From NCBI GenBank assembly GCA_024103275.1, contig JAGFIV010000015.1, positions 1 through 64,000 of the forward strand: a stretch of 64,000 bases of DNA. Direction: 5' to 3'. The translations under genes were made by a program, and so were the position numbers. Positions within the stretch are counted from its first letter, which is position 1, and each line of letters starts with the position of its first letter. The notes beneath the pieces were generated by a model. That model was not told the origin of the DNA. It worked only from the letters and a program-made list of their open reading frames with translations, and searched no databases. This document shows positions 26,637 through 39,909 of the stretch, piece after piece. The stretch comes from Flavobacteriales bacterium. Its GTDB lineage: Bacteria; Bacteroidota; Bacteroidia; Flavobacteriales_F; PHOS-HE28.

Positions 26637-28112
26637 TCACGCGCGGAGCTCCTCTGCCATCGCCCTGAACTCCTTCAATGCCGCCTCCAGGTCCTGCACG
26701 ATCTCCGCCGCCAGCACACCGGGCTCCGGTAGGTTGGCGCTGTCCTCCATGCTCTCATCCTTCAGCCAGAAGATGTCCAGGCTGGCCTTGTCGCGGGCCA
26801 TGATCTCCTCGTAGCTGTACTTGCGCCAGCGGCCCTCCGGCGTTTTCGTGCTCCAGGTCTCCTTGCGCTTGTGGCGGTCGGCCGGGTTGTAGCATTGGAT
26901 GAAATCCGCCAGGTCCTCGTACCGGAGCGGGTCGGTCTTCAGCGTGTGCTTGATGTTGGTGCGGTAGTCGTAGATCCACACCTCCTTGGTCCACGGGGTT
27001 TTCGCGCCGGGCTTGTTCTCGAAGAAGAGCACGTTCGCCTTCACGCCCTGCGCGTAGAAGAGGCCGGTGGGCAGGCGCAGGATGGTGTGCAGCTCGGTGG
27101 TGCGCAGCAGTTGTTTGCGCACGGTCTCGCCCGCGCCGCCCTCGAAGAGCACATTGTCCGGCAGCACCACGGCCGCGGTGCCACCCGGTTTCAGCATGCT
27201 GCAGATGTGCTGCACGAAGTTGAGCTGCTTGTTGCTGGTGGTGGCCCAGAAGTCCTGTCGGTTGTAGGTGAGGGCCTCGCGTTTCTCCTCCCCATCTTCG
27301 TTGGTCACCGTCACGCTGCTCTTCTTGCCGAAGGGCGGGTTGGTGAGCACATGGTCGAACTTCTTCGTGGGTGTGGAACGAAGGCTGTCGTCACGGATGA
27401 TGTCGGCCTTGTGGTCCATGTCGCCCACGTTGTGCAGGAAGAGGTTCATCAGGCACAGGCGCGCGGTGCTGGTCACGATCTCCCAGCCGTGGAAGGTCTC
27501 GTACTTCAGGAACCTCAGCTGGTCCTTGTTCAGCTTGTGGTGGTGCGTGAGGAAGTCGTAGGCCGCGAGGAAGAAGCCGCCGGTGCCGCAGGCCGGATCG
27601 GCGATGGTCTGTTCGGGCTGCGGGCGCACGCACTCCACCATGGCCTGGATCAACGGGCGCGGCGTGAAGTATTGCCCCGCACCGCTCTTGGTGTCCTCGG
27701 CGTTCTTCTGCAGCAGGCCCTCGTAAATGTCGCCCTTCACATCGGCGCCCAGCAGCACCCAGCTCTCGCCATCGATCAGCTGGATCAGCTTGTGCAGCTT
27801 GGCCGGGTCGCTGATCTTGTTCTGGGCCTTCACGAAGATGTCACCCAGCATGCCGGTCTTCTTGCCCAGCTCGTCCAGCAGCTTCACGTAGTGGCTCTCC
27901 AGCTCGGCGCCTCTCTTGCCGCGCAGGCTCTGCCAGTCGTAACCGGTGGGCACTTTGGTGTCGCGCTTGTAGGGCGGCTTGCTGTACTCGTCGGCCATCT
28001 TCAGGAACAGCAGGAAGGTGAGCTGCTCCAGGTAGTCGCCGTAGCCCACGCCATCATCGCGCAGGGTGTGGCAGAAGTTCCAGACTTTGTTGACGATGGC
28101 GGTGCTGGTCAT
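26637..28112 (-). CDS. hsdM: Type I restriction-modification system, DNA methyltransferase subunit
   Basis: N6-adenine methyltransferase of a type I R-M complex. 491 residues: N-terminal helical HsdM domain (LRDDGVGYGDYLEQLTFLLF), SAM-binding motif I DPACGTGGF (172-180) and catalytic motif IV NPPF (258-261). The start overlaps the toxin-gene stop by 4 bp (ATGA), so it is translationally coupled to the PemK-like toxin rather than to hsdS or hsdR, which lie 5 and 9 kb upstream on the same strand. It is the last gene of the island. Confidence 0.96.
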   Translation of the reverse strand: MTSTAIVNKVWNFCHTLRDDGVGYGDYLEQLTFLLFLKMADEYSKPPYKRDTKVPTGYDWQSLRGKRGAELESHYVKLLDELGKKTGMLGDIFVKAQNKISDPAKLHKLIQLIDGESWVLLGADVKGDIYEGLLQKNAEDTKSGAGQYFTPRPLIQAMVECVRPQPEQTIADPACGTGGFFLAAYDFLTHHHKLNKDQLRFLKYETFHGWEIVTSTARLCLMNLFLHNVGDMDHKADIIRDDSLRSTPTKKFDHVLTNPPFGKKSSVTVTNEDGEEKREALTYNRQDFWATTSNKQLNFVQHICSMLKPGGTAAVVLPDNVLFEGGAGETVRKQLLRTTELHTILRLPTGLFYAQGVKANVLFFENKPGAKTPWTKEVWIYDYRTNIKHTLKTDPLRYEDLADFIQCYNPADRHKRKETWSTKTPEGRWRKYSYEEIMARDKASLDIFWLKDESMEDSANLPEPGVLAAEIVQDLEAALKEFRAMAEELRA

Positions 28113-28447
28113 GGGTGCATGATATGTTCCGTGAAGCGCTGTTTGATGAGATCCAATGTGCCCTGATCCACCTTGCCGATGACGCCTTCAATGTGCTTGC
28201 GCGGAATGATGTGCGCGAAGCTCAAGCGCGCCACGCCAGCGTAGCTCAAGCCCGTGCGCTGGAAGCTGGGATGTTCAGGGCCGAGGATCACATCAAGCCC
28301 TGCCACGGCGAGTTCGACATGACTTGAAATACCGATAACCAACCAGTCATTGAAAGGCGGGCAGGACTTGATCAGGATGGCTGGACGTGGCTTCCGGGCC
28401 ATGTCGGCCTGCGGAAGCGCCGTACGCACTACGTCCCCGGCTTCCAT
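28109..28447 (-). CDS. PemK/MazF-like toxin
   Basis: 112 residues from the ATG at 28447 (MEAGDVVRTALPQADMARKPRPAIL...). The N-terminal GDVVR, the KPRPAILIKS strand and GLSYAGVARLSFAHII are reminiscent of the MazF/PemK/Kid barrel, an mRNA endoribonuclease in toxin-antitoxin pairs. The start overlaps the preceding gene's end by 19 bp and the stop overlaps hsdM by 4 bp. Divergent from textbook MazF, so RNase activity is inferred only. Confidence 0.7.
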   Translation of the reverse strand: MEAGDVVRTALPQADMARKPRPAILIKSCPPFNDWLVIGISSHVELAVAGLDVILGPEHPSFQRTGLSYAGVARLSFAHIIPRKHIEGVIGKVDQGTLDLIKQRFTEHIMHP

Positions 28448-28875
28448 GGGATGTAGTCGGGGTTGGGCTCCAGCAATTTGATCTGGCTGATATCCGGCTC
28501 GTCCTCCGCGTAAGCCCGCGACAAACCCCACAGCCCCACGTTCGCCCAGAACTCCCGCTCGTCATCGGCTTCAGGATCCAAGATCACCTCGACGTTGAAC
28601 TCCTCCTTCAATTCCTTTCTCAGTTCCTGCGCGCCATTGTTGGACCTCAACTCGAGCAGCAGCTCATCGGCCCTGGGTTCACCCGATCCCTTCCGCTTCA
28701 GGAAATGCCGGGCGGCCAGCATCACCAGCATCACCATGGTGAGCCAGGTGTCCTGCGGCAATCGGGGCCTGCGCATGAGCAAGAGCGAATCGCCGGGGGC
28801 CAGGCCCTCCCGTTGGAACAAGCCATAGGCCGTGGTGCCGGCCTGGCTCTCCGTATTGATAACGATCTGCTTCAT
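28429..28875 (-). CDS. Putative antitoxin partner of the PemK/MazF-like toxin
   Basis: 148 residues, not recognised as a known family with certainty. N-terminal half is beta-like (MKQIVINTESQAGTTAYGLF), the middle is basic and helical (KELKEEFNVEV), and the C-terminal segment WGLSRAYAEDEPDIS...PNPDY is acidic, which is common for MazF-neutralising tails. Position first in a toxin pair with overlapping genes supports the antitoxin role. A TAACTTGC promoter-like element (28890 to 28883) ends 7 nt before the ATG. Confidence 0.55.
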   Translation of the reverse strand: MKQIVINTESQAGTTAYGLFQREGLAPGDSLLLMRRPRLPQDTWLTMVMLVMLAARHFLKRKGSGEPRADELLLELRSNNGAQELRKELKEEFNVEVILDPEADDEREFWANVGLWGLSRAYAEDEPDISQIKLLEPNPDYIPWKPGT

Positions 28876-29187
28876 GGTGGCTGCAAGTTACGCCGTGCCC
28901 TTCTTCCGCTCCCGCAACACCGCCCGTATCCGCTTCACCTTCGCCGGGTCCTCGCCGGTCACCGGGTAGCGCCCCGCCGGATCTCGGGGATGGCGATCCC
29001 GCCCTCCTTCACCGTTCCCCACCGAAGGCTCTGCGGAGGCGGGCAAGCGAGCAGGTTTGCGATCAGGGGTTGCTGGAGGGGAATTCCCGGGGCGATGGAC
29101 AAACGCTTAAATAAGCATGGTGCTGTGGCACAGGGAATTGTACATGGTGGTTCAACGGCGCAAGCGCATTGGCTGGAACAAGGACGC
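28876..29187. other. Intergenic stretch; possible gene remnant on the minus strand
   Basis: A minus-strand frame ending at 28888 reads RYPVTGEDPAKVKRIRAV followed by a Lys/Arg-rich end, which is coding-like, but it has no ATG in frame and loses coding character beyond about 29000. It may be the tail of a deleted gene. The promoter-like TAACTTGC for the antitoxin gene lies at 28883-28890. The rest (29060-29187) shows nothing recognisable. Confidence 0.3.
28883..28890 (-). promoter_or_regulatory. Putative -7 element TAACTTGC before the antitoxin gene
   Basis: TAnnTTGC variant, also seen before hsdR (TACTTTGC) and the T9SS esterase (TACATTGC). Ends 7 nt from the ATG at 28875; would give the toxin-antitoxin-hsdM unit its own transcript. 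Confidence 0.4.
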
Positions 29188-29682
29188 TTAGAACGCCCAT
29201 CCTTCCTTCCGCATCAACCCGAGGATGCTGATGCATGGAATGCCCATCTCGCGGCACACGTCGGGGATGTAATGCGACCGCTTGGCCCTGCTCTTCTCCG
29301 AAGCGGGGGTCTCTTGCGTGACCACGATCCCGTTGGGCGTGCGTTGGGCAAGGGCGATCAGGTAGGCGTCGGCCTCCTCGTAAGTAGCCCTTGGGTCCAG
29401 CAGGCCCGGAAAGCGGTGCTGAATGGCAAGCGCACCGGCAAGCACATCAGCGTTGGGCACGAACATGTTCCTGTGGGCCTTGACCCACGCCACAAGCTCC
29501 GGCGCACCCACGGCTTCCACCTCTTCGCGTACCAGTGCTGGCGCCACCAGCCGGTCTTCGCTCACCAACTGGTCCATGCGAGACAGCATGCCCGGGAAGA
29601 TGTCCGTGGGGTAGTAGCGCGCCTGCCAATCCATCAGGGAATTGGTGTCGATGCAGTACAAGGGCTTCGCTCCGTTGCTCAT
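29188..29682 (-). CDS. DUF4411 family (PIN-like) protein
   Basis: 164 residues beginning with YCIDTNSLMDW, the first Asp (Asp12) of a PIN-type active site, followed by EEVEAVG, an acidic YEEADAYLIALA and VVTQET, in the order of PIN-like nucleases. DUF4411 genes usually follow an HTH-ImmA/IrrE gene, as here, with a 4-bp ATGA overlap (29679-29682). Such pairs behave like toxin-antitoxin or defence modules, but the mechanism is not established. Confidence 0.85.
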   Translation of the reverse strand: MSNGAKPLYCIDTNSLMDWQARYYPTDIFPGMLSRMDQLVSEDRLVAPALVREEVEAVGAPELVAWVKAHRNMFVPNADVLAGALAIQHRFPGLLDPRATYEEADAYLIALAQRTPNGIVVTQETPASEKSRAKRSHYIPDVCREMGIPCISILGLMRKEGWAF

Positions 29683-30869
29683 ACGCCGGAAGCGTTGCCG
29701 AGGCCCTGCACCAAGCGACCGCGCAGTTCGTCGAAGTGGTTGAACTTCAGATCCAGGAAGCGGGCGGCATCCACCGAGGTGATGCGGTTGGCGGCCAGCG
29801 CGCTCAGCACCAGGGTGGTGAAGGGGCGGCCGTTGCGGCCCACGGCCTTTTGCGCTTGGGTAACCGGCCCGCCCTTGCGCGGCGGCAGCGTGGACACGTA
29901 TTCATCCCATGCCTTGCGCCACGCGTTGTATTGCGGCCACGTCATCAGCCCGGCGGCGACCAACCGCGTGGCGGTGGCGCTGGGTGTGATCCGGAAACGG
30001 CGGGCGAGCTTGCGGATGTTCTCGAAGTTCCATGGACCTTGCTGCAGCCCCAGCACTTGGAGCACCTCGTGCAGTGCCACCTCGGGTACCAGGGTCATGC
30101 TGGCCACCTGCTCCGCGAAGCGTTCCACCTCCTGCCATTGCTGTTCGCTGCGTCGCTCGTTGATGGCGGCCGCTTCCTCGTTTGCGTTGGCCAGCATCAG
30201 GTGTACCACCTCGTGCAGCAGCGTGTAGGCCTTGGCCTCGGGCAACTCCTTGGTGTTGATGCCCACAACCGGCATGGGCGCACGCAGCAGGGCTACACCG
30301 CGTGCCTCGTCCAAGGGCACCTTGCTGAATTGGAACACCAGCAGCCCCAGGTGTTCTGCGGCATCGCGCCATGCGTTCCACGCCCGCGAGGCATCGGGCT
30401 GGGCCAGTTGCGCGGCCACGGTGAAGCCCAGTGCTGCGCGCAGGCGTGTTGCCACGGTAGCAGCCCCTTCACTTTGGTGTGCGGCGAGGGCGAAGGGCAC
30501 CGGCACTTCGCCCAGCTCATCCATCAGGTCCAGGGCGGTCTCCCGGCGCATCAGCATGCGGCGCAGGGCCAGGCGCAGCTCAGGGCTTTCCTCGCCCGGC
30601 TTCACCTTGGGCAGGCGCCGGTATTCGGCGGCCAGCGGTGCCAGCTTGGGCGGCTCAGGCAGGAAGAACACGCTGAACGGCCGTTGCAGGAAGTGCGCGA
30701 GCTTCTCCACCTGCCGCATGGTGGGCTGCATCTCGGCGTTCAGCCACGCCCGCAGCCGCTCCTCCTTCACCGGCACCGCCTTGGCCACCCGCTCCAGCGG
30801 GTAGCCGCTCTCGGCCACGGCCCACTCAAGCAGCGGTGGATTGATGGGGACGGTCGCGCGGGCACTCAT
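29679..30869 (-). CDS. HTH-type regulator with ImmA/IrrE metallopeptidase domain
   Basis: 396 residues: an N-terminal XRE-like DNA-binding region (about 10-70, LRAWLNAEMQPTMRQVEKLA) and a zinc-peptidase domain with HEVVH (219-223) followed by a downstream glutamate (EVERFAEQVA). ImmA/IrrE proteins cleave repressors in response to stress or mobile elements; here the likely target or partner is the DUF4411 product. An exact TACCTTTG element ends 4 nt before the ATG, so this pair is probably an independent, leaderless transcription unit inside the island. Confidence 0.88.
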   Translation of the reverse strand: MSARATVPINPPLLEWAVAESGYPLERVAKAVPVKEERLRAWLNAEMQPTMRQVEKLAHFLQRPFSVFFLPEPPKLAPLAAEYRRLPKVKPGEESPELRLALRRMLMRRETALDLMDELGEVPVPFALAAHQSEGAATVATRLRAALGFTVAAQLAQPDASRAWNAWRDAAEHLGLLVFQFSKVPLDEARGVALLRAPMPVVGINTKELPEAKAYTLLHEVVHLMLANANEEAAAINERRSEQQWQEVERFAEQVASMTLVPEVALHEVLQVLGLQQGPWNFENIRKLARRFRITPSATATRLVAAGLMTWPQYNAWRKAWDEYVSTLPPRKGGPVTQAQKAVGRNGRPFTTLVLSALAANRITSVDAARFLDLKFNHFDELRGRLVQGLGNASGV

Positions 30870-30873
30870 GGTT

Positions 30874-30881
30874 CAAAGGTA
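30874..30881 (-). promoter_or_regulatory. -7 promoter element TACCTTTG before the ImmA/IrrE gene
   Basis: Exact TAnnTTTG on the minus strand, 4 nt from the ATG at 30869; implies a transcription start at or within the start codon. Confidence 0.6.
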
Positions 30882-30932
30882 CCGGTGGGGGTTATGGACG
30901 CGGGGTTGGTCCTGAGTAGCGAAGTTCATAAT

Positions 30933-31841
30933 CTATAAACTCAAAGCAGCCTTCGCCTCTTTCGCCATCAGCTCAGCCGTATGGTAAGCACGCTCCTCAA
31001 ACTTGTCTCTGAACTTCTCGAACAGCCAGTCGAAGAGCGGCACGCTGCGCTTGCGATGGTCGAAGATCTCATCCTGCAAAGCCCGCGATTTCGAAGCCAT
31101 CGCTTCTGGCGATGCACGAGCAAGGCCATCCCTCCACATTGAATCGAGATGGTCCCTCAGCTTGTCCAAGCGCTTCGCTGATTCGATCTGTTCGTGCCAA
31201 TGGCGAATACTAACGATCAACGCGGGGGCTAGTGGAACAACGACGTATTTGAGAAGATCAATCAATAGCATGCCCTTCACAACCCCAATGACGAGGAACG
31301 AAAGTGTGATGACGAGAATGGCACCGAGTAACCAACGGCACAGGTAGCGACGAAGCTGTCCATCCCAGTGAATATTCTCGCGCTGGCACACAACACGCGC
31401 CATTTGCAACGAAAGGCCATGAATTGCGGGCGTGTACCAATCAACCAGTGGCGAATGCTTGTGCGCGTTGGGGCGGTAGCGGTCACTCCATTCCTTTTCC
31501 ACCTCAATGGCTTCGGGCTTCCCCACCTTGATGTCGGACCATGGTAACGCAAGCACATCGCAGTCGAACGCCTCCTGGATGCGTGCAGCGCTTTCCTTGA
31601 GCCGCCGTATATGGGGGGTGACGAGCAGCGTATCAATGAAGACCATGATCAGGCCAACCACTGGACTCAGTGGGCGATAGACTTGATCCCAGATACCAAT
31701 GGCCGTTAGGGCGACTGGAACCGCGCCGAAGACGATGACATTCAGAATGAACCAGTCCTTCGCCCGTGAGTAAAGCGCCCGCTGCGCGGCAAGACGATCC
31801 AATTGTCTTGGCTCATTCTGTCTGGTCAGAATGGTGCTCAT
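30933..31841 (-). CDS. S-4TM family putative pore-forming effector
   Basis: 302 residues with four predicted membrane helices in two pairs (about 31-51, 58-75, 169-189, 196-212) separated by a soluble region and followed by a long charged C-terminal helix. This is the architecture of the SMODS-associated 4TM effector, thought to open a membrane pore when it senses the nucleotide made by the partner cyclase, killing or arresting the infected cell. The gene starts 2 nt after the CD-NTase stop, so the two are translated together. Confidence 0.82.
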   Translation of the reverse strand: MSTILTRQNEPRQLDRLAAQRALYSRAKDWFILNVIVFGAVPVALTAIGIWDQVYRPLSPVVGLIMVFIDTLLVTPHIRRLKESAARIQEAFDCDVLALPWSDIKVGKPEAIEVEKEWSDRYRPNAHKHSPLVDWYTPAIHGLSLQMARVVCQRENIHWDGQLRRYLCRWLLGAILVITLSFLVIGVVKGMLLIDLLKYVVVPLAPALIVSIRHWHEQIESAKRLDKLRDHLDSMWRDGLARASPEAMASKSRALQDEIFDHRKRSVPLFDWLFEKFRDKFEERAYHTAELMAKEAKAALSL

Positions 31842-31843
31842 CC

Positions 31844-32710
31844 TTAGTACTTCGGGAACTCGTAGTAGTAAAGCTTATTCCACCAGTCGAAGGCGTCGGC
31901 GATGTTGCCCGCATTCTCGGCATCGCACGCCTTCTCTGCACGCGATACTGCGGTTTCCAACTTACCGAACGCATCGTCGTGCTTTGCATTCGTGTTGCAC
32001 GGAGTGATATAGCCTCCAATTCCTGTTGGGTCTTGCATTCGAGCCAATCCGCCATCCAACATTTGCTTCAGAACGCGCTTCACATCTATGCTGTAGACAA
32101 TACTCGATTCGCCGTCGGCATACTTCGCGGTCCTCATCTCCAAGTAGAAAGAGCTGATCGGAACGTCTCGGAAATACTTCCATGCCTTGACATAGCGTAT
32201 CAGCTTCTTGACCTGTCCTGAGTGCTTGGCATTCACTGCGCGCACGTACTCATTGTGCGCATCTGGGCTGGCATTCATCCAGCCGCCGTTACCGTCGGCT
32301 ATGCCATAGACCTTATGGCCATCATGCTCGACTTTATAGTAGGCTGGGACAATTTCTGTCTTTTGTGCCGCCGTGGTCCCGAATTCCAATCTCACGGCAG
32401 GTGTGCGGACTTTCACCTCGGTAAGCGGAAAGCGGTCATCCAGAACGCCCTTAACCTTGACGAGGGCGTTGGCTGAGTTGTCGGGTAGTCTATTCGATGG
32501 ACAAACTGCGATGTAGTCCGTATCGCTGTGGCCAGTGATACTTGTTCCATTGCCGAACGACCCGATTCGCGCGAAACGGTACATGCCGAGATTGTCGCGC
32601 AGGCAACTCTCTACTGTTTCCCGATGACCGCTGGCACCCTTTTCTTCAGTACTCGTCGGGGTCAGTCGTGTGTGAAACTCTTGCCAGCCTTGGGCTATCG
32701 TCTTTGCCAT
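31844..32710 (-). CDS. CD-NTase (CBASS-type nucleotidyltransferase)
   Basis: 288 residues. The pol-beta NTase signature is intact: GSFGNGT (Gly50-Ser51) and SDTDY with Asp63 and Asp65 as the first two metal ligands. The third acidic position, normally an Asp before VP, is Glu119 in KTEIVPAYY. Such enzymes make cyclic di- or oligonucleotides (or, in related systems, DNA oligomers) on phage infection. No Cap2/Cap3 (E1/E2, JAB) or HORMA/TRIP13 genes are next to it, so this would be a minimal two-gene system with the S-4TM effector. Confidence 0.85.
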   Translation of the reverse strand: MAKTIAQGWQEFHTRLTPTSTEEKGASGHRETVESCLRDNLGMYRFARIGSFGNGTSITGHSDTDYIAVCPSNRLPDNSANALVKVKGVLDDRFPLTEVKVRTPAVRLEFGTTAAQKTEIVPAYYKVEHDGHKVYGIADGNGGWMNASPDAHNEYVRAVNAKHSGQVKKLIRYVKAWKYFRDVPISSFYLEMRTAKYADGESSIVYSIDVKRVLKQMLDGGLARMQDPTGIGGYITPCNTNAKHDDAFGKLETAVSRAEKACDAENAGNIADAFDWWNKLYYYEFPKY

Positions 32711-32785
32711 CTATTCATGGTATTTCATTCGCCTAATTCGCTCAATAGCGAGGTCCAGAGTCTCGACCGTCGCAGAGCACGCTGG

Positions 32786-32929
32786 CTATTTCTCCCTCCT
32801 AGGCGGCGGTGGTGGATCTTGGTACTTCGGTATTTGGCCCTCTTGGATTCTGACCGGTTCTCCAGGGTTTGGCGGAGGTGGTTGAGGTTTAGGCGTTGAC
32901 GGCTTAGGGGTGGGGGTCTTATCGCTCAT
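32786..32929 (-). CDS. Proline-rich microprotein A (47 aa) with RIQEGQIP core
   Basis: Starts with an ATG overlapping the stop of the preceding 2TM gene (ATGA, 32926-32929). Sequence begins MSDKTPTPKP, is about one third proline, carries the core VRIQEGQIPKY, then five prolines and a basic end RREK. A second copy with the same plan lies at 34758-34907. No signal peptide or membrane segment. After its TAG the same frame remains open for 24 codons (ETLDLAIERIRRMKYHE) and stops one base before the NTase ATG, so an in-frame extension by read-through or a decayed domain is conceivable. Function unknown. Confidence 0.6.
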   Translation of the reverse strand: MSDKTPTPKPSTPKPQPPPPNPGEPVRIQEGQIPKYQDPPPPPRREK

Positions 32930-33426
32930 CGTGCTTGGGTGTTGAATGCCTGTTTGAAAAAGTCGTCGCAAAGTTTCTTCGCCTTGTTTACGACAGATTT
33001 AGGTTCAGAACGTAGGGCCTCAGAGATTTGGGACCCAATCTCCTTTTCCCCATCCTTGATCTTATAGAATGCCTTCAAGGCTTGTTCTTCGGTCACACGA
33101 CCAGCCTCATAGTCAAACCAGAGCTTTTCCAAATCGTTGTAGTAGGCTGTGTAAAACGACTTCGTTCGATCAAGTTGGTTCAGCATCTTATCGGTCACAA
33201 TTAAATGCGGTTGTATCAACCGCAATAGTGATACCCCGGCTATTATGGCACACGAAATTACTGGAACGGTGTCCCATACCTTCCAGCCCATCACTCCACC
33301 AGTAGAAAACACAAGCATACCAATATTGAAGTAGCGCAACCACTGGCGCTGTATATCCGCGTAAAGACCCACATACTCAACGCTGTACCGGGCTTGCGTC
33401 ATCTCGGACCATAATCTGCTCCTCAT
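32926..33426 (-). CDS. Two-TM membrane protein, SLATT-like, of unknown function
   Basis: 166 residues: amphipathic N-terminus, two close membrane helices (about 33-51 and 54-72), and a long charged helical tail. This hairpin-plus-helix plan resembles SLATT-type membrane proteins found with nucleotide-signal defence genes, but I see no diagnostic motif. It is stop-start overlapped with proline-rich microprotein A and lies directly upstream of the CD-NTase/S-4TM pair, so it may be part of that system or a separate module. Confidence 0.65.
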   Translation of the reverse strand: MRSRLWSEMTQARYSVEYVGLYADIQRQWLRYFNIGMLVFSTGGVMGWKVWDTVPVISCAIIAGVSLLRLIQPHLIVTDKMLNQLDRTKSFYTAYYNDLEKLWFDYEAGRVTEEQALKAFYKIKDGEKEIGSQISEALRSEPKSVVNKAKKLCDDFFKQAFNTQAR

Positions 33427-33454
33427 GTTATTGTGTTGGTTCTCATTGTTATGT

Positions 33455-34684
33455 CTACACCAACCTCCCCTCGAACGCCCGCTTCAACACCGCCTGACGC
33501 AAACGACCTGCCTGCAACAACTGTGCGTCGAGAGTGGAGTCCAACTCATCCGTCTTTTGCAGCCGGTCTTCGACGGCCTTCACGATCTGCAACTGGTCGG
33601 TTTTCGGCGGTAGAATGAAATCGAGCACCTTGAAGCGGTTCTTGTTGAGTAGTGGTAGCGTTGTGGCCGATGCGTTGTCCTTGATCTGCTGCTGGAAGAA
33701 TGGCGAGATGCATTGGAAGTAGCCGTACTCAGGAACAAGGCTGTCGTTCGGCACGATAGCATTGATCTGTTGATTGCATGCGCCCGCAACTCGGATCAGC
33801 CCAGTCTTGCCAATCGTAGCACCAATACACGTTACGAGAATGCTCTTCGCAGGGAGCTCTCGTGCCTCTTTCAACCCTGCCTCGGTCAGGCCGTCGATTG
33901 ACTCACTCGTTTCGTAACCCGCTGCTAGGTCTGTGGGCTTATAGAATGGATGGTCCGTACCATAGTAGTCCGCAATGCCCTTTGAAGGAGTGCTGCCTGT
34001 TACGATCTGCCCAACCTCTTCAACAGGGACGACCTTCCAGCCCTTGGGCAATTCCCCTTCCGACAAGTCGGGGTCCGTCAACCTCCCCTCCACCGCCGCC
34101 TTCAACACCGCCTGCTTGTACCGTTTCAACCGGGCCTTGGCCGCCTGCAAGCGCGCCACCCCCGCTTCCAGCCGCCCCAGCTGCCTTTCGATCGCCTCCA
34201 CGATACGACGCTGCTCGGGGAGGGGGGCGACCGGAACAGGAATATTCGACATCGCCCCCTTAGTCAACTTCAACCGAGTTGTCCCTGTGACATAAGGAGA
34301 GTAATCGAGGATGTTCAGGAAGTGCATCAGGTATGCGTTAGGCATCCCACCCTTTGCTCGAAGAACATGGGCATGGTTGTTCACCCAGGATTTCCCGGAA
34401 ATCATATACGCCTTCGCTCGAACTGGGTCCAAGAACGGCGCGCCGTCCTCACCGACCAACACAACCTCTTCATCAATTAGATGCTTGTCGATCCAACCTA
34501 CTTGACCGGTCGCGCCGTAGTAGGGAACATTACCTTGTCGTTTCTCTCGTTCTGCAGCGTTGATTGGCTTTCGCTTGCTGTCAAGGTTGTCCGCTACGAG
34601 CCCCAGTGGCATCCACGACCAACCATTCGGCAGATCCGATTCTGTCACGGTCAAGTCTCTGTCTGTGTTTGCATTGGGTTCCAT
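33455..34684 (-). CDS. hsdS: Type I restriction-modification specificity subunit
   Basis: 409 residues from the ATG at 34684 (alternative 34735). Two target-recognition domains: TRD1 (PNGWSWMPLG, YYGATGQVGWID) and TRD2 (PKGWKVVPVEEVGQ, GSTPSKGIADYYG), each followed by a conserved helix (EQRRIVEAIERQLGRLEAG; KAVEDRLQKTDELDS). It determines the sequence methylated by HsdM and cut by HsdR. The chosen start sits inside a small hairpin stem. Flanked on both sides by a membrane-protein/microprotein module. Confidence 0.93.
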   Translation of the reverse strand: MEPNANTDRDLTVTESDLPNGWSWMPLGLVADNLDSKRKPINAAEREKRQGNVPYYGATGQVGWIDKHLIDEEVVLVGEDGAPFLDPVRAKAYMISGKSWVNNHAHVLRAKGGMPNAYLMHFLNILDYSPYVTGTTRLKLTKGAMSNIPVPVAPLPEQRRIVEAIERQLGRLEAGVARLQAAKARLKRYKQAVLKAAVEGRLTDPDLSEGELPKGWKVVPVEEVGQIVTGSTPSKGIADYYGTDHPFYKPTDLAAGYETSESIDGLTEAGLKEARELPAKSILVTCIGATIGKTGLIRVAGACNQQINAIVPNDSLVPEYGYFQCISPFFQQQIKDNASATTLPLLNKNRFKVLDFILPPKTDQLQIVKAVEDRLQKTDELDSTLDAQLLQAGRLRQAVLKRAFEGRLV

Positions 34685-34744
34685 TGGTACATGTGGCTGG
34701 GCCAATGGAGCCTGAACTGGTGCGGATGTGCACACCAGTTCAGG
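34681..34744 (-). promoter_or_regulatory. Two hairpins at the hsdS translation start
   Basis: Arms CCTGAACTGGTG (34711-34722) and CACCAGTTCAGG (34733-34744) form a perfect 12-bp stem with a 10-nt loop. A second inverted repeat CCATTGG/CCAATGG (34681-34687, 34702-34708) includes the ATG at 34684. No U-tract follows, so it looks more like an attenuator or translational switch than a plain terminator. Confidence 0.55.
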
Positions 34745-34757
34745 TCTCCACTATATG

Positions 34758-34907
34758 CTATTTCTTAGGGTCTGGCGGTGGTGTCGGCCTGGGTGACGGT
34801 TGAGGGAGAGGCGGTGGTGGGACCTTGCCCTCCTGGATCTGTCTGTCCCGAGGCGGTGGTGGTGGCGGTGGTGGTTCTGGGGCCGGTGGTTGTTTCTCGT
34901 CGCTCAT
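34758..34907 (-). CDS. Proline-rich microprotein B (49 aa) with RQIQEGKVP core
   Basis: Too short for ordinary gene callers. Begins MSDEKQPPAPEP, contains eight consecutive prolines, then the core RDRQIQEGKVPP, a Pro-rich tail and a basic end DPKK. Its plan (MSD start, Pro tract, IQEG core, Pro tract, basic end) matches microprotein A at 32786-32929. Its ATG lies inside codon 206 of the upstream membrane-protein frame, and that frame continues over the whole microprotein. Similarity to microprotein A argues that this frame is the translated one. Function unknown. Confidence 0.6.
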   Translation of the reverse strand: MSDEKQPPAPEPPPPPPPPRDRQIQEGKVPPPPLPQPSPRPTPPPDPKK

Positions 34908-35523
34908 TGTTTTGTTTGGTGTTGGTAATTGAATTTGCGGTGACTACTTGCACTTGGTGTACATCTGGTGCTTTGTGGAAGTAGTTGTAGCCAAAGGGGA
35001 AACACGCGAGCGCCATGCACACCAAGCCGAGCACCATGTATCGTTTTGCTGTGAACACATGCTTTGTCTTGCGGTCATTAACTCGCATGTTGTAGTCAGC
35101 GTGTTCAGCAAATTTCTTAATAAGGTGTTTTCGATACTCTTCATCGGCTTGAGCTACGCCATTGCCATACTTCGTGTAATACTTCACTAGATCCTCACGC
35201 CAGTCGAATAACTCTTGTGGATAAGGTACGCCCTTATACTCATATCCCTTAATGAGATCGCTGAATGCACGGATCAACGAGTACACCGAAACCGCAATCA
35301 GTATTGTTGATACGATGGAGAGGCCAATGAAGGTGCCACGTATCCATCCACCTTGCCCATAATCGAAGGTGGTCAGCAGATAGAATGCGATGCTGACAAG
35401 GGCGGTAACTATCGCTATGGGAATACTTAGTGCGTCATTAACAGCGGCTCTCCTTTCATTCTCCGTATTATACAGCTCCTTGTAGAACTCGAACTGATCC
35501 ATCGCTTGTGCGTTCCTCGTCAT
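34765..35523 (-). CDS. Three-TM membrane protein of unknown function with Thr-rich overprinted tail
   Basis: 252 residues from the ATG at 35523. N-terminal helix (FEFYKELYNTENERRAAV), membrane segments at about 31-54, 62-86 and 162-181, and a charged cytoplasmic loop between the second and third (KKFAEHADYNMRVNDRKTKH). Codons 206 onward, read in this frame, give a low-complexity Thr/Gly tail and coincide with the proline-rich microprotein in another frame; the real protein may end near residue 205 in other strains. The sequence is AT-richer than hsdR and hsdM. No family recognised. Confidence 0.65.
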   Translation of the reverse strand: MTRNAQAMDQFEFYKELYNTENERRAAVNDALSIPIAIVTALVSIAFYLLTTFDYGQGGWIRGTFIGLSIVSTILIAVSVYSLIRAFSDLIKGYEYKGVPYPQELFDWREDLVKYYTKYGNGVAQADEEYRKHLIKKFAEHADYNMRVNDRKTKHVFTAKRYMVLGLVCMALACFPFGYNYFHKAPDVHQVQVVTANSITNTKQNNERRETTTGPRTTTATTTASGQTDPGGQGPTTASPSTVTQADTTARP

Positions 35524-35542
35524 CACACCGTCAGCAATTCAT

Positions 35543-36268
35543 TCAGACCATGTGCGCCAGCTCCGGCATCTCATCGTAGGTGCGCCCCTCCAGTTCGCGC
35601 CCGGCGGCCTTCTTGTTGGTGCCGCCCCATTGCTTGAAGAAGAAGGCCACATCGGCCCGGTCGCACTGGTCCTTGATGTCCAGCACCCAATCGGGATCCA
35701 TGGGCCGGGGCTTGCGCCCGCTCTCGCCACCCACGATCACCCAGTCGATCCGGCTCAGGTCCATGTCGGGCAACGGGCCGATCAGTGGCTCACAACTCAG
35801 GAATTTTACGCGCGCACCGGTCTGCCGTAAGGCATCGATGCGGTGGCGCACCCGACCGTCCTCCACGCTCACGCCCATCCACACGTTGTGCGGCCAGGTC
35901 AACAGGCCTTCGCGGTCGTAGCGCAGCAGGACATCGGCCCGCTTGGTGAGCACCTGGAACACGTGCTGTGGGTTGTCCCGCATCACGGCGAACACCTGTT
36001 GGATGAAATCCACCGGCACATCCTTGTGGAAGAGGTCGCTCATGCTGTTCACGAACACCATCTGCGGCTTTTTCCAGGTGTACGGCCGGTCCAGTTCATG
36101 CGGGTGGATGCGCAACTTGAAGCCGTCCTTGTACTTCTCCAGGCCCATGGCCCGCAGGCGTCGGCTCATCACCTCCGCATAGCAGAATTTGCAGCCCGCG
36201 CTCAGTTTGTTGCAACCGGTCACGGGGTTCCAGGTCATCTCGGTCCATTCAATGCTGCTCTGTGCCAT
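35543..36268 (-). CDS. Phage Gp37/Gp68 (DUF5131) family three-Cys-motif protein
   Basis: 241 residues beginning with SSIEWTEMTWNPVTGCNKLSAGCKFCYAE-type sequence: Cys19, Cys26 and Cys29 form the three-cysteine cluster after WNPVTGC, reminiscent of radical-SAM-like iron-sulfur sites. QVLTKRADVLL, WMGVSVED and VIVGGESGRKPRPM are further family blocks. It is the usual partner of TcmP, whose gene ends 3 nt upstream. Despite the name there are no phage genes around. Biochemical role unknown. Confidence 0.9.
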   Translation of the reverse strand: MAQSSIEWTEMTWNPVTGCNKLSAGCKFCYAEVMSRRLRAMGLEKYKDGFKLRIHPHELDRPYTWKKPQMVFVNSMSDLFHKDVPVDFIQQVFAVMRDNPQHVFQVLTKRADVLLRYDREGLLTWPHNVWMGVSVEDGRVRHRIDALRQTGARVKFLSCEPLIGPLPDMDLSRIDWVIVGGESGRKPRPMDPDWVLDIKDQCDRADVAFFFKQWGGTNKKAAGRELEGRTYDEMPELAHMV

Positions 36269-36271
36269 GGG

Positions 36272-37114
36272 TCAGAACATTTGTAGTTGATCGTTGCTGC
36301 CTCGCTGAACCTTGCCGAAGAACTGGGTGCCTAAGGGATGCTTGGAGTAGAACGCGAGATAGTAGATGATGTGACCGGTGCTGATCGAGATTGGTTCCTT
36401 CATTGCCTCGGTCAAGTATCCCAATTTCTTCATGTTGACGTCGAATTCGTCAGCCAAGAACTTGCAAAATCTATGCATTGGATAGTTACCTGCAAGAAAC
36501 TTCTCGCGCCAGTTTGGGTTGCCTGTAAAACGCGCGAGTCGTTCATGGTTCTCTTGCATGTATATTTCACGGTTCCGCTGTCCATCCATCTTCAATGCGT
36601 GCAGCACAAGGATGTCGACCTTTTCCCTAGCGAGCACTTTCATGGTCTCAAAATCGAGATTCAGCGAGAATGGGTCCAGGAAGCAGAAAGTAAGCGTGCC
36701 GCGGTTGTTCGAGAACCTTGGTCTACTCGTTAAAATTTCTTCAATACATGTATTGGCATCCTTGCAGGAATACTGTACAGACACCGAGGGATGTAGTCGC
36801 TGAACTCTCGCCTCCATCGCTTCCATGTTCCGCGGAGAGTAATCGTTCAGGATGTAGTGATCGAAAGCCTTTGGAACACTCATCGAAATCAGACCGGCAT
36901 TCCGCATAATCTGGCCGGTATCCCGGATCTTCACGAAGCCTGGCCCACAGAACAGGTCCATGTAGATCAAGTTCCACTTTCCTTTCATACTGCTTGTGAA
37001 GATGTCACAGTACTTACCCACGAGCTTGTATTTCTTTTGAGCCCATATGCCAACATCCATCAAAGGCAGCCCGTCATTTTCCTCGAACTGTATCGGATTG
37101 AACTTCTTGCCCAT
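36272..37114 (-). CDS. tcmP: Three-Cys-motif partner protein TcmP
   Basis: 280 residues from the ATG at 37114, overlapping the hsdR TGA by one base (TGATG). Contains DLFCGPGF (53-60), resembling a SAM-methyltransferase motif I, and later LTFCFLDPFSLNLDFETM, in keeping with TcmP-family methylase-like proteins. TcmP and Gp37/Gp68 genes travel together in defence islands and on mobile elements; a nucleic-acid-modifying role is plausible but unproven. Lower GC than hsdR, implying a separate origin. Confidence 0.88.
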   Translation of the reverse strand: MGKKFNPIQFEENDGLPLMDVGIWAQKKYKLVGKYCDIFTSSMKGKWNLIYMDLFCGPGFVKIRDTGQIMRNAGLISMSVPKAFDHYILNDYSPRNMEAMEARVQRLHPSVSVQYSCKDANTCIEEILTSRPRFSNNRGTLTFCFLDPFSLNLDFETMKVLAREKVDILVLHALKMDGQRNREIYMQENHERLARFTGNPNWREKFLAGNYPMHRFCKFLADEFDVNMKKLGYLTEAMKEPISISTGHIIYYLAFYSKHPLGTQFFGKVQRGSNDQLQMF

Positions 37115-39909
37115 CACGCCGCCAACGCTTCGTTCAACTCATCAATGATCCCGTCCATGTCCGCCCCGAAAAGCTGGTGCATGCGGGCAAGGCCGCCCTG
37201 CTGGCCCAGGGTGCCCAGTTCCAGGTCGTCGCGGTCCAGGTGTATGCTCTGGGCGATGAAGTCGCGCAGCTGGCGCAGCCAGGCCATCTGCTCCTCGGTG
37301 AACTTCACGTTGCCCGCCTGCTTCCGGAACACCCACTCCTGGAAGTTCTTCCGCACGGTGTCGGCGTAGGGGCGTAGCTCGTTGTCGATCTTCAGTTCGT
37401 AGCGGATCAGGGAAACGAGATCGGTGAGTTGCACCAGCCCACTGCGTTTCCGGCCGGGGTTGTCGGTTGTCAGTTGTTGGTTGTCAGTCGCGCCGGACAA
37501 CTGAGAACTGACAACTGACAACCGCTCATAGGCGTTCCACACCATCTCCAGGCTCAGGTTGTAGGGCGGCGTGCGCAGGGCTTCCACCACTTCCTGCACC
37601 ATGCGGAAGGTGAGCTCCCGGCGGCGGTAGGGCTGGCTGTAGTAGATGCGCAGGGCGGTGAGGGTGTCGCGCTTTTCCTCCAGGAATCGCCTAAAGGTGC
37701 CCAGCACGGCCTGGGCCTTCTCCCGGGCCTGTTCACTGCCACCGGCGTAGGTCACCTCGTCCAGGTTGTGCGTATCGATCACCTGTTCGTATTGCTTGCG
37801 CACGTTCTCCACGTATTCGCGAAAAGCGGCATTGTCGAACACGGCGGTGGCGGCCTTGGGCAGATCGCTGCCGGGATGCGCGGCCACCACGTCGGGGTCG
37901 TGGGCGTCCAACAGGTCGCGCACGACGCGCTGGATGCTGCGGCCACCGGCCTTCTGCTGGAATTCCGCCTTCTCCTTCGGGGCGATCTGCTTCTCCATCC
38001 GCGTGAGGCGGTTGGCCAGGCTGGTGAGGGTGTCGGCATCGCGCTGGCCCATCACCACCCGCATCATCAGGTCCTTCAGGCTCACGCCGGGCAGGCGCTC
38101 CAGCGGGCGGCTGTCGGTCTTGCAGCTCTTGGTCACGCCCACGGCATCCACCAGCACGAAGTGGGTTTTGTTGGTGGTGGCGCTGGGGCTCACCTTGCGC
38201 AGGCTGTCGGCGTCGAGGATGCGGGTGCCGCGGCCCTTCATCTGCTCGAAGTAGTTGCGGCTCTTCACGTCGCGCATGAAGAGGAGGATCTCCAGGGGCC
38301 GCACGTCGGTGCCGGTGGCGATCATGTCCACGGTGACGGCGATGCGCGGGTTGTAGTCGTTGCGGAAGCGCGCCAGCAGGCCCTTGGGGTCCTCCTTGGT
38401 GTTGTAGGTGATCTTCTTGCAGAAGTCGTTGCCCTCGCCGTATTCCTCGCGCACGATGCGGATGATGTCGTCGGCGTGGCTGTCGTTCTTGGCGAAGATC
38501 AGCGTCTTGGGCACCTCGGTGCGGCCGAGGAAGATCTCGGACTCCACGGCGTGCTTGAAGGCGCGGATCACGGTGCGGATCTGGCTGGGGTTCACCACGT
38601 CGCGGTCCAGCTGGGTGCCGGTGTAGGTGATGTCCTCGTCGGCCTGTTCCCAGCGTTTGGCGCGGGTGAGGCGGTCGCGCTTGTCGATCTGCTGCTGCGC
38701 CTGGATGGTGGCGCCCTGTTGGGTGATGCGCGTTTCGATCAGGTATTCGTCGTAGCCCACGTTCACGCCGTCGGCCACGGCCTGTTCATGGCTGTACTCG
38801 CTCACCACGTTCTGGTGGAAGAAGGCGTAGGTGCGGGCGTCGGGCGTGGCGGTGAGGCCCACCAGGAAGGCATCGAAGTACTCCAGCACCTGCCGCCAGA
38901 GGTTGTAGATGCTGCGGTGGCATTCGTCCACGATGATGAGGTCGAAGAATTCCGGTGGATAGGTGGCATTGTAGGCCACGGGGGCCGGTGCGGAGGGAGC
39001 ATCATGATGCGCCCGTACAGATCCCGCCCCGGCCACCGCGCGGGCCACCTCCGCCGCCGATGCCTCGTCGGCCCCTTCGGCCAGCTCCTCGCCCTGCAGA
39101 ATGGAATACATGCGCTGGATGGTGCTGATGCACACCTGCGCGCCGGCATCGATGAAGCTGCTGGTGAGGCGCTGCACGGTGTACAGCTCGGTGAACTTGC
39201 GGCGGTCGTCGTTGGGGGTGTAGCCCTGGAATTCCTGCTCGGCCTGTTCGCCCAGGTTCCTGGTGTCCACCAGGAAGAGGATGCGCCGCATGCGCACGGG
39301 CGGCTTCAGCAGACGGTACACGCTGGTGATGGCGGTGAAGGTCTTGCCGCTGCCGGTGGCCATCTGCACCAGGGCGCGCGGCTTGTTCCGGCTGAGGCTC
39401 TCCTCCAGGTGGGTGATGGCGTTCACCTGGCAATCGCGCAGGCCGGTGGGGTCCAGCGGCGGGAAGCGGGTGAGGCGCGTGCGCAGGCTGTCCTCCTTCA
39501 GCCATTCCTGCAAGGTCTCGGGCCGGTGGAAGCTGAAGACCTCGCGGGCGCGGGGCTTGGGGTCGCGCAGGTCCCAGTGGGTGGTGATCTCGCCGGTGCT
39601 GAGGTAGCAGAAGGGCAGGGTGCTCTGGCCGATGGTCCAGCGCAGCATGGCGGTGGCGTAGCCCTCGGCCTGGTCCTCGTGCATGGTGAACTTTTCCCCT
39701 TCCTCGGGCTTCTTGGCCTCCACCACGCCCACGGGCACGCGGTCCACGAAGAGGATGTAGTCCGCTGGGCCCACGTCGGTGTCGTATTCGCGCACGGCCA
39801 CGCCCAGGGCGGCCGAGGGGTCGAGCGCCTTCTTGTCCTGCACGGCCCACCCGCTCTGCATGAGCAGCCGGTCGATCTGCTCGCGGGCGCGTTGTTCGGG
39901 GGTGGACAT
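37114..39909 (-). CDS. hsdR: Type I restriction endonuclease, R subunit
   Basis: 931 residues, EcoEI-like. PD-(D/E)xK nuclease at the N-terminus (GPADYILFVD with Asp50; GVVEAKK with Glu64 and Lys66), helicase domain with Walker A MATGSGKT (183-190), DECH box (VDECHRSIYN), and motif VI-like QMKGRGTRI; C-terminal helical region binds the MTase. ATP-driven translocation and cleavage of unmethylated DNA. About residues 797-817 are a low-complexity Ser/Gln/Thr insert coded by a palindromic repeat. First gene of the minus-strand island; TACTTTGC lies 22 nt before the ATG. Confidence 0.96.
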   Translation of the reverse strand: MSTPEQRAREQIDRLLMQSGWAVQDKKALDPSAALGVAVREYDTDVGPADYILFVDRVPVGVVEAKKPEEGEKFTMHEDQAEGYATAMLRWTIGQSTLPFCYLSTGEITTHWDLRDPKPRAREVFSFHRPETLQEWLKEDSLRTRLTRFPPLDPTGLRDCQVNAITHLEESLSRNKPRALVQMATGSGKTFTAITSVYRLLKPPVRMRRILFLVDTRNLGEQAEQEFQGYTPNDDRRKFTELYTVQRLTSSFIDAGAQVCISTIQRMYSILQGEELAEGADEASAAEVARAVAGAGSVRAHHDAPSAPAPVAYNATYPPEFFDLIIVDECHRSIYNLWRQVLEYFDAFLVGLTATPDARTYAFFHQNVVSEYSHEQAVADGVNVGYDEYLIETRITQQGATIQAQQQIDKRDRLTRAKRWEQADEDITYTGTQLDRDVVNPSQIRTVIRAFKHAVESEIFLGRTEVPKTLIFAKNDSHADDIIRIVREEYGEGNDFCKKITYNTKEDPKGLLARFRNDYNPRIAVTVDMIATGTDVRPLEILLFMRDVKSRNYFEQMKGRGTRILDADSLRKVSPSATTNKTHFVLVDAVGVTKSCKTDSRPLERLPGVSLKDLMMRVVMGQRDADTLTSLANRLTRMEKQIAPKEKAEFQQKAGGRSIQRVVRDLLDAHDPDVVAAHPGSDLPKAATAVFDNAAFREYVENVRKQYEQVIDTHNLDEVTYAGGSEQAREKAQAVLGTFRRFLEEKRDTLTALRIYYSQPYRRRELTFRMVQEVVEALRTPPYNLSLEMVWNAYERLSVVSSQLSGATDNQQLTTDNPGRKRSGLVQLTDLVSLIRYELKIDNELRPYADTVRKNFQEWVFRKQAGNVKFTEEQMAWLRQLRDFIAQSIHLDRDDLELGTLGQQGGLARMHQLFGADMDGIIDELNEALAA
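37459..37522. repeat. Palindromic GTTGTCAGTTG-type short repeat inserted in hsdR
   Basis: A 64-bp segment made of GGTTGTCAGTTG-type units on the left and their complement CAACTGACAACC on the right around a GC core, able to fold into a hairpin. It is in frame inside hsdR and encodes a Ser/Gln/Thr/Asp-rich patch (SVVSSQLS ... QQLTTDN) between helicase and C-terminal domains. Composition and symmetry are those of dispersed REP/MITE-like elements. Confidence 0.75.

Follow-up and report, generated by a model that had tools for sequence, protein, structure and literature searches.

Two reading frames of fewer than 50 residues, here called micro1 and micro2, lie on the minus strand of the window, the whole 64,000-nucleotide stretch of DNA analysed, each in contact with a gene for a small membrane protein (mem1 and mem2, respectively). 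They raise the question of whether such short, proline-rich reading frames are genes and, if so, what they do for the membrane proteins to which they are joined. An earlier note, made from the sequence alone, had described them as parts of a duplicated module, with a common MSD start, proline tracts, an IQEG core and a basic end. Both reading frames are present as described (Table 1), and alignment of the two peptides, which are 47% identical, bears out all of these common features; the duplication of the module does not hold.

Table 1. Positions in the window of the two membrane/peptide pairs and of the genes around them, in minus-strand order
Feature	Position	Strand	Description	Basis
hsdR	37114-39909	minus		
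TcmP-like gene	36272-37117	minus		
DUF5131	35543-36268	minus		
mem2	34765-35526	minus	253 aa from GTG 35526, three hydrophobic helices	
micro2	34758-34907	minus	49 aa: MSDEKQPPAPEPPPPPPPPRDRQIQEGKVPPPPLPQPSPRPTPPPDPKK	ORF reading, alignment, core motif test
Shared coding sequence of mem2 and micro2	34765-34907	minus		
micro2 core	34818-34844	minus	RQIQEGKVP	sequence reading, alignment
hsdS	33455-34735	minus	type I specificity subunit, between both pairs	PF01420 1.1e-32
mem1	32926-33426	minus	166 aa, two hydrophobic helices then helical tail	searches, structure model
micro1	32786-32929	minus	47 aa from ATG 32929: MSDKTPTPKPSTPKPQPPPPNPGEPVRIQEGQIPKYQDPPPPPRREK	ORF reading, alignment, core motif test
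micro1 core	32828-32851	minus	RIQEGQIP	sequence reading, alignment
CD-NTase (CBASS)	31844-32710	minus	75 bp downstream of micro1	PADLOC Cyclase 3.2e-118
S-4TM	30933-31841	minus	effector of CBASS pair	PF18159 5.5e-77
ImmA/IrrE-like gene, then PIN-like gene			after S-4TM in minus-strand order	
hsdM	26637-28112	minus	beyond PIN-like gene	

Results

The peptide, not the module, recurs

The earlier note had each small gene directly following a membrane-protein gene. Each is tied to one, but neither simply follows it: the ATG of micro1 overlaps the stop codon of mem1 (ATGA), and micro2 lies within the 3' end of mem2 in the +1 frame, starting 143 bases ahead of the mem2 stop and running over its last ~48 codons. 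The proline codons of micro2 (CCA, CCG, CCT and CCC) are read as Thr-rich sequence in the mem2 frame. Family alignment places the start Met of mem2 at 35502, giving a protein of about 245 aa.

The two membrane proteins belong to different families. Profile comparison of mem1 with mem2 gave an hhalign probability of 1.5%, that is, no detectable relation; duplication of the whole module was therefore dropped, and the peptide is the element that recurs. The mem1 model (pLDDT 83) has helices at residues 2-50, 55-75, 79-107, 113-131 and 143-161. That of the mem2 family, made from a fused Flavobacterium protein (pLDDT 84), has helices at residues 3-24, 26-45, 53-85, 97-116 and 123-181 and a disordered tail; in this family, conservation falls on NIPIGILT, where the first membrane helix begins, and on an N..NND.K stretch ahead of the third. 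Neither membrane family was named by Pfam, PADLOC or PDB sequence searches, in which no Pfam cutoff was passed. Foldseek returned no match below 0.001 for either model and the VIA-align rows were generic helical bundles, an absence of match that is not evidence of a new fold.

Setting of the two pairs in the window

Read along the minus strand, the locus runs hsdR, TcmP-like gene, DUF5131, mem2 with micro2, hsdS, mem1 with micro1, CD-NTase, S-4TM, ImmA/IrrE-like gene, PIN-like gene and, later, hsdM, so that the pairs flank hsdS and sit beside CD-NTase/S-4TM, as the earlier note had it. This order indicates that a type I restriction locus, which also houses CBASS, carries both pairs as cargo; the CD-NTase and S-4TM genes form a complete CBASS pair by themselves. 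No counterpart of the DNA of either pair turned up in 44 other genomes from the same family, where matches are confined to hsdS, which indicates that the cargo varies between strains. Across 26637-39909 as a whole, hsdR, hsdS and hsdM are split apart by at least three cargo blocks (TcmP-like/DUF5131; the two membrane/peptide pairs; CBASS; ImmA/PIN). DUF5131 and the adjoining TcmP-like gene (35543-37117) match the PADLOC candidate pairs PDC-M41/PDC-M30.

The peptide occurs in fused, overlapping and split forms

Relatives were gathered by searching with the membrane protein alone, the peptide not being used. They were found in ~2% (mem2) and ~1% (mem1) of the sampled Bacteroidota genomes, with further relatives on 12 named genome contigs, one viral contig and plasmids of Pseudomonas, Photobacterium, Vibrio and Adhaeribacter; those of mem1 come from two Bacteroidota genomes and the Adhaeribacter plasmid. 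The peptide is fused in frame to the membrane protein in Flavobacterium limi (L040), Flavobacterium sp. HJJ (L042), Epilithonimonas (L043), Chryseobacterium (L044), the viral contig (L052), Photobacterium (L024, which has an additional small ORF) and Vibrio pectenicida (L103). It overlaps the membrane gene in the +1 frame in the mem2/micro2 pair of the window and in Chloroherpetonaceae (L045), Ignavibacteriales (L048), Bacteroidales (L049), Cyclobacteriaceae (L050) and a P. syringae plasmid (L023). Split forms occur in Kaistella (L041), Pedobacter (L046) and Winogradskyella (L051), and, within the mem1 family, the small ORF is split off in L004 (with the end TPPPPEPNTDRTVEEGKKE), L005, L006 and L022; those of L005 and L022 share the core motif poorly. 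At two loci (L012 and L031) the membrane protein is present and the peptide absent, and the L047 sequence ends too early to judge.

The F. limi and Kaistella genes are ~90% identical, yet the former is fused and the latter split at TAATG, with junction lengths that differ by one base; the two show that a single small step separates fusion from fission. Their tails differ by 10 synonymous changes versus 8 conservative or terminal replacements, and the core is unchanged. The same layout and core are kept at 16-18 loci across Bacteroidota, Chlorobi/Ignavibacteria and Gammaproteobacteria. Taken together, the gene arrangements show a conserved peptide that interchanges between cis and trans, with a linkage that looks obligate. 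Its occurrence as a separate coupled ORF, a +1 overlapping ORF or an in-frame C-terminal tail indicates that it acts as a subunit or tail of the membrane protein.

In Photobacterium (L024 4983-5874), the fused proline tail is followed directly by a second small proline-rich ORF with AGGAG ahead of its ATG. A distant two-helix membrane protein (L033 1486-2107) is followed directly by a 38-aa basic, Lys-rich ORF that has no proline tracts, and small basic partners of membrane proteins may thus be more general.

Linkage and core motif exceed their controls

The linkage was measured with a fixed criterion: a gene counted if its 3' end had a small ORF, 30-70 aa long, whose proline content was at least 20%, or if prolines made up at least 25% of its last 45 residues. 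Fourteen of the 16 membrane-protein relatives outside the window have such an end (the peptide-less L012 and L031 lie outside this count), versus 3 of 184 other genes at the same loci, and all three of these control genes lie in the GC-rich window. With the window included, the count is 16 of 18 membrane genes. Between the proline tracts sits the core R-x-[IV]-[KRQ]-[EQ]-[GDN], which is found in 13 of 19 peptides versus a mean of 0.97 and a maximum of 6 when the non-proline residues were shuffled, a figure that is optimistic because the motif was defined after viewing the alignment of the same sequences. Among the overlapping ORFs, the core is present in all six peptide frames and none of the six membrane frames, the motif again having been read from these sequences. 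A search of 345 Bacteroidota genomes with the peptide profile gave seven places below E 0.01, all adjoining these membrane genes; as six of these are in, or equal to, the training set, one place (G103) is independent. Weaker matches were unrelated proline-rich stretches. Among open-licence papers, we found no description of such a peptide.

Thus the small ORFs, which fall under the usual gene-calling size, were rightly proposed to be conserved genes tied to membrane proteins, and core-bearing homologues do exist beside membrane genes. The microproteins are very probably real genes and dedicated partners of small membrane proteins, judging from these comparisons.

Translation of the overlapping peptide

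We favour independent initiation of the overlapping peptide, which the reading frames suggest in several ways. Each overlapping ORF has its own ATG just past a stop in the peptide frame. The N-termini are alike across forms (MSDEK, MSDKE, MSNQK, MTDEK, MQNEQ and MRNDQ), and fused forms retain the start Met internally (MRNDQ and MRNER). AGGAG stands 10 nt (P. syringae) and 6 nt (Photobacterium) ahead of the small-ORF ATG, versus 2-5% of ATGs there. Bacteroidota do not rely on Shine-Dalgarno sites, so a missing site there is uninformative. Among P. syringae plasmid alleles (L023 3548-3658 and L058-L061), the proline tract varies by 6-bp CCGCCA units (8, 10 or 12 Pro) while the core and the rest are unchanged; the tract is a possible length-variable element.

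Programmed +1 frameshifting would instead make the overlapping peptide a C-terminal tail of the membrane protein, so that all forms equal the fused one and lie on the same membrane side. In its favour, the six overlapping cases share one and the same +1 frame, fused forms exist and a topology conflict would vanish: charge flanks in the mem2 family mildly favour N-in, which with three helices places the fused tail outside, in conflict with cytoplasmic separate peptides, which carry no signal sequence. Frameshifting is nevertheless improbable, given that each overlapping ORF has an ATG of its own just after a stop and an N-terminus like that of the split forms, that AGGAG precedes this ATG in P. 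syringae, and that split forms use other frames (L041, L005 and micro1). Alternatively, the proline tracts could have their effect as they are translated, with EF-P-dependent stalling late in the membrane-protein message timing membrane insertion or sensing translation stress and the peptide itself of little function. Proline runs, a known stalling context, are in every peptide and their length differs between alleles; however, conservation extends to the basic end and to the core that the tracts enclose, neither of which stalling alone would need, and this account is hardly probable.

Genomic neighbourhoods

The relatives often lie in defence or mobile neighbourhoods, as had been anticipated, with defence genes beside many of them and others on plasmids or the viral contig. 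Restriction, TIR/caspase, SIR2 or HEPN genes stand next to many of them. Among the neighbours are a NotI-type REase and its methylase (L045), type IIG enzymes (L048 and L049), a ThsB-like TIR, caspase and KAP NTPase (L050), SIR2 (L051), PD-Lambda-3_B (L024), a Ppl-like ATPase (L043) and Fic (L022). Two loci have housekeeping settings, beside an AI-2E transporter (L042) and ilvD (L046). Since no neighbour is constant across loci, the membrane/peptide pair is autonomous. Single-protein scans of viral contigs with the window proteins found nothing, and the same was true with the L048 and L050 proteins and for phage records.

Discussion

We infer an effector role for the membrane proteins, regulation by the peptide and an anti-phage function. 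Our proposal, put forward tentatively and at somewhat less than an even chance, is that the peptide serves membrane effectors of a PycTM/SLATT-like layout as a dedicated tail or regulatory subunit. The membrane protein would be a membrane-perturbing effector of the PycTM/SLATT type, and the two proline arms would act as rigid spacers that offer the R-x-[IV]-[KRQ]-E-G core to the membrane oligomer or another partner. As long as this contact was undisturbed, the tail would keep the complex either inactive or assembled; once a partner derived from phage or stress altered the contact, the membrane would be permeabilised and the infected cell would stop growing. Counting against this proposal are the Pfam cutoffs that the membrane proteins do not pass, the hhalign probability with PycTM (24.7%), the two relatives that have no peptide, the topology conflict and the housekeeping neighbours of some copies. 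The in-frame fusions favour a constitutive subunit or tail. They argue against a decoy that diffuses freely and against an antitoxin that is degraded on its own, but may be compatible with a tethered tail that inhibits the protein to which it is joined. A further candidate, a proline-rich antimicrobial-like ribosome inhibitor, was dropped, as the peptide could not diffuse when fused and its core is acidic. The wider claim is doubtful, albeit conceivable: that an undescribed family of proline-rich microproteins, encoded by overlapping, coupled or fused genes, would supply two or more unrelated membrane effector families with a regulatory tail exchangeable between cis and trans, as a new anti-phage membrane switch.

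Two other functions were weighed against this proposal. The pair could work like a type II module, with a membrane protein that is toxic by itself and a peptide that is its antitoxin; a small partner gene, translational coupling and a mobile or accessory setting (plasmids, the viral contig and absence from the other family genomes) are what such a pair would have, but frequent in-frame fusion and an extreme proline composition are unusual for antitoxins and two relatives have no peptide at all, so that we consider it unlikely. That the tails are ordinary low-complexity sequence, kept by hitch-hiking and of no specific function, is very improbable and already disfavoured: sequence of this kind does expand easily, as the P. 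syringae alleles illustrate, but the same layout and core persist across three groups and the core is intact through the changes between the F. limi and Kaistella tails.

If the tail or regulatory-subunit proposal is true, small membrane effectors have an entire partner component that was overlooked, the peptide being shorter than 50 residues, low in complexity and in many cases out of frame inside a neighbouring gene. Whether a clone of the annotated membrane gene alone brought the peptide along would then depend on the species. Ready-made constructs for comparing cis with trans action and for locating the membrane side of the peptide exist in nature, where fused, split and overlapping versions occur.

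Comparison with known systems

Like type II toxin-antitoxin modules, the pairs consist of two coupled genes, one very small, on mobile elements; unlike in those modules, the peptide is often fused to its partner and has no antitoxin-like DNA-binding domain. The SLATT, S-4TM and 2TM effectors of CBASS-like systems are, like mem1 and mem2, small membrane proteins made of helices and found in islands of this kind, but the relatives of mem1 and mem2 have no CD-NTase at any other locus examined. Nor is the mem1/micro1 pair a constant part of a CBASS operon, L004, L005 and L022 having no CD-NTase in the stretch read. The SLATT layout of two membrane helices and then a helical tail is found in mem1 by its model and by hydropathy judged by eye, although this is a common layout and weak evidence. 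No Pfam SLATT match was above the cutoff; a single one of 18 mem2 relatives matched, at E 0.078, and mem1 gave none. Panoptes OptE and other nucleotide-gated 2TM effectors are restrained by a small cyclic nucleotide (PMC12657218, PMC12657230); the likeness, a membrane effector restrained by a second component, is one of principle only, restraint by a peptide here being our proposal.

PycTM of Pycsar (PF18967) differs in that those of its relatives that were examined end with no evident proline tail or small ORF. A pyrimidine cyclase is absent beside mem2, whose neighbours are hsdS and DUF5131, and among the relatives scanned. With PF18967 itself, mem2 gave no match at E<=1 and the window genome gave 0 matches. 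Mem2 and PycTM are of similar length and alike in the order of their three hydrophobic helices, the last two of which are separated by a helical stretch. The membrane family gave weak profile matches to PycTM (1.1e-4) and, with one profile, to CBASS 2TM effectors (6.6e-5), and comparison of the mem2 family with PycTM gave an hhalign probability of 24.7% (E 7.9e-4 over 139 columns). These weak but recurring links suggest that the two may be kin.
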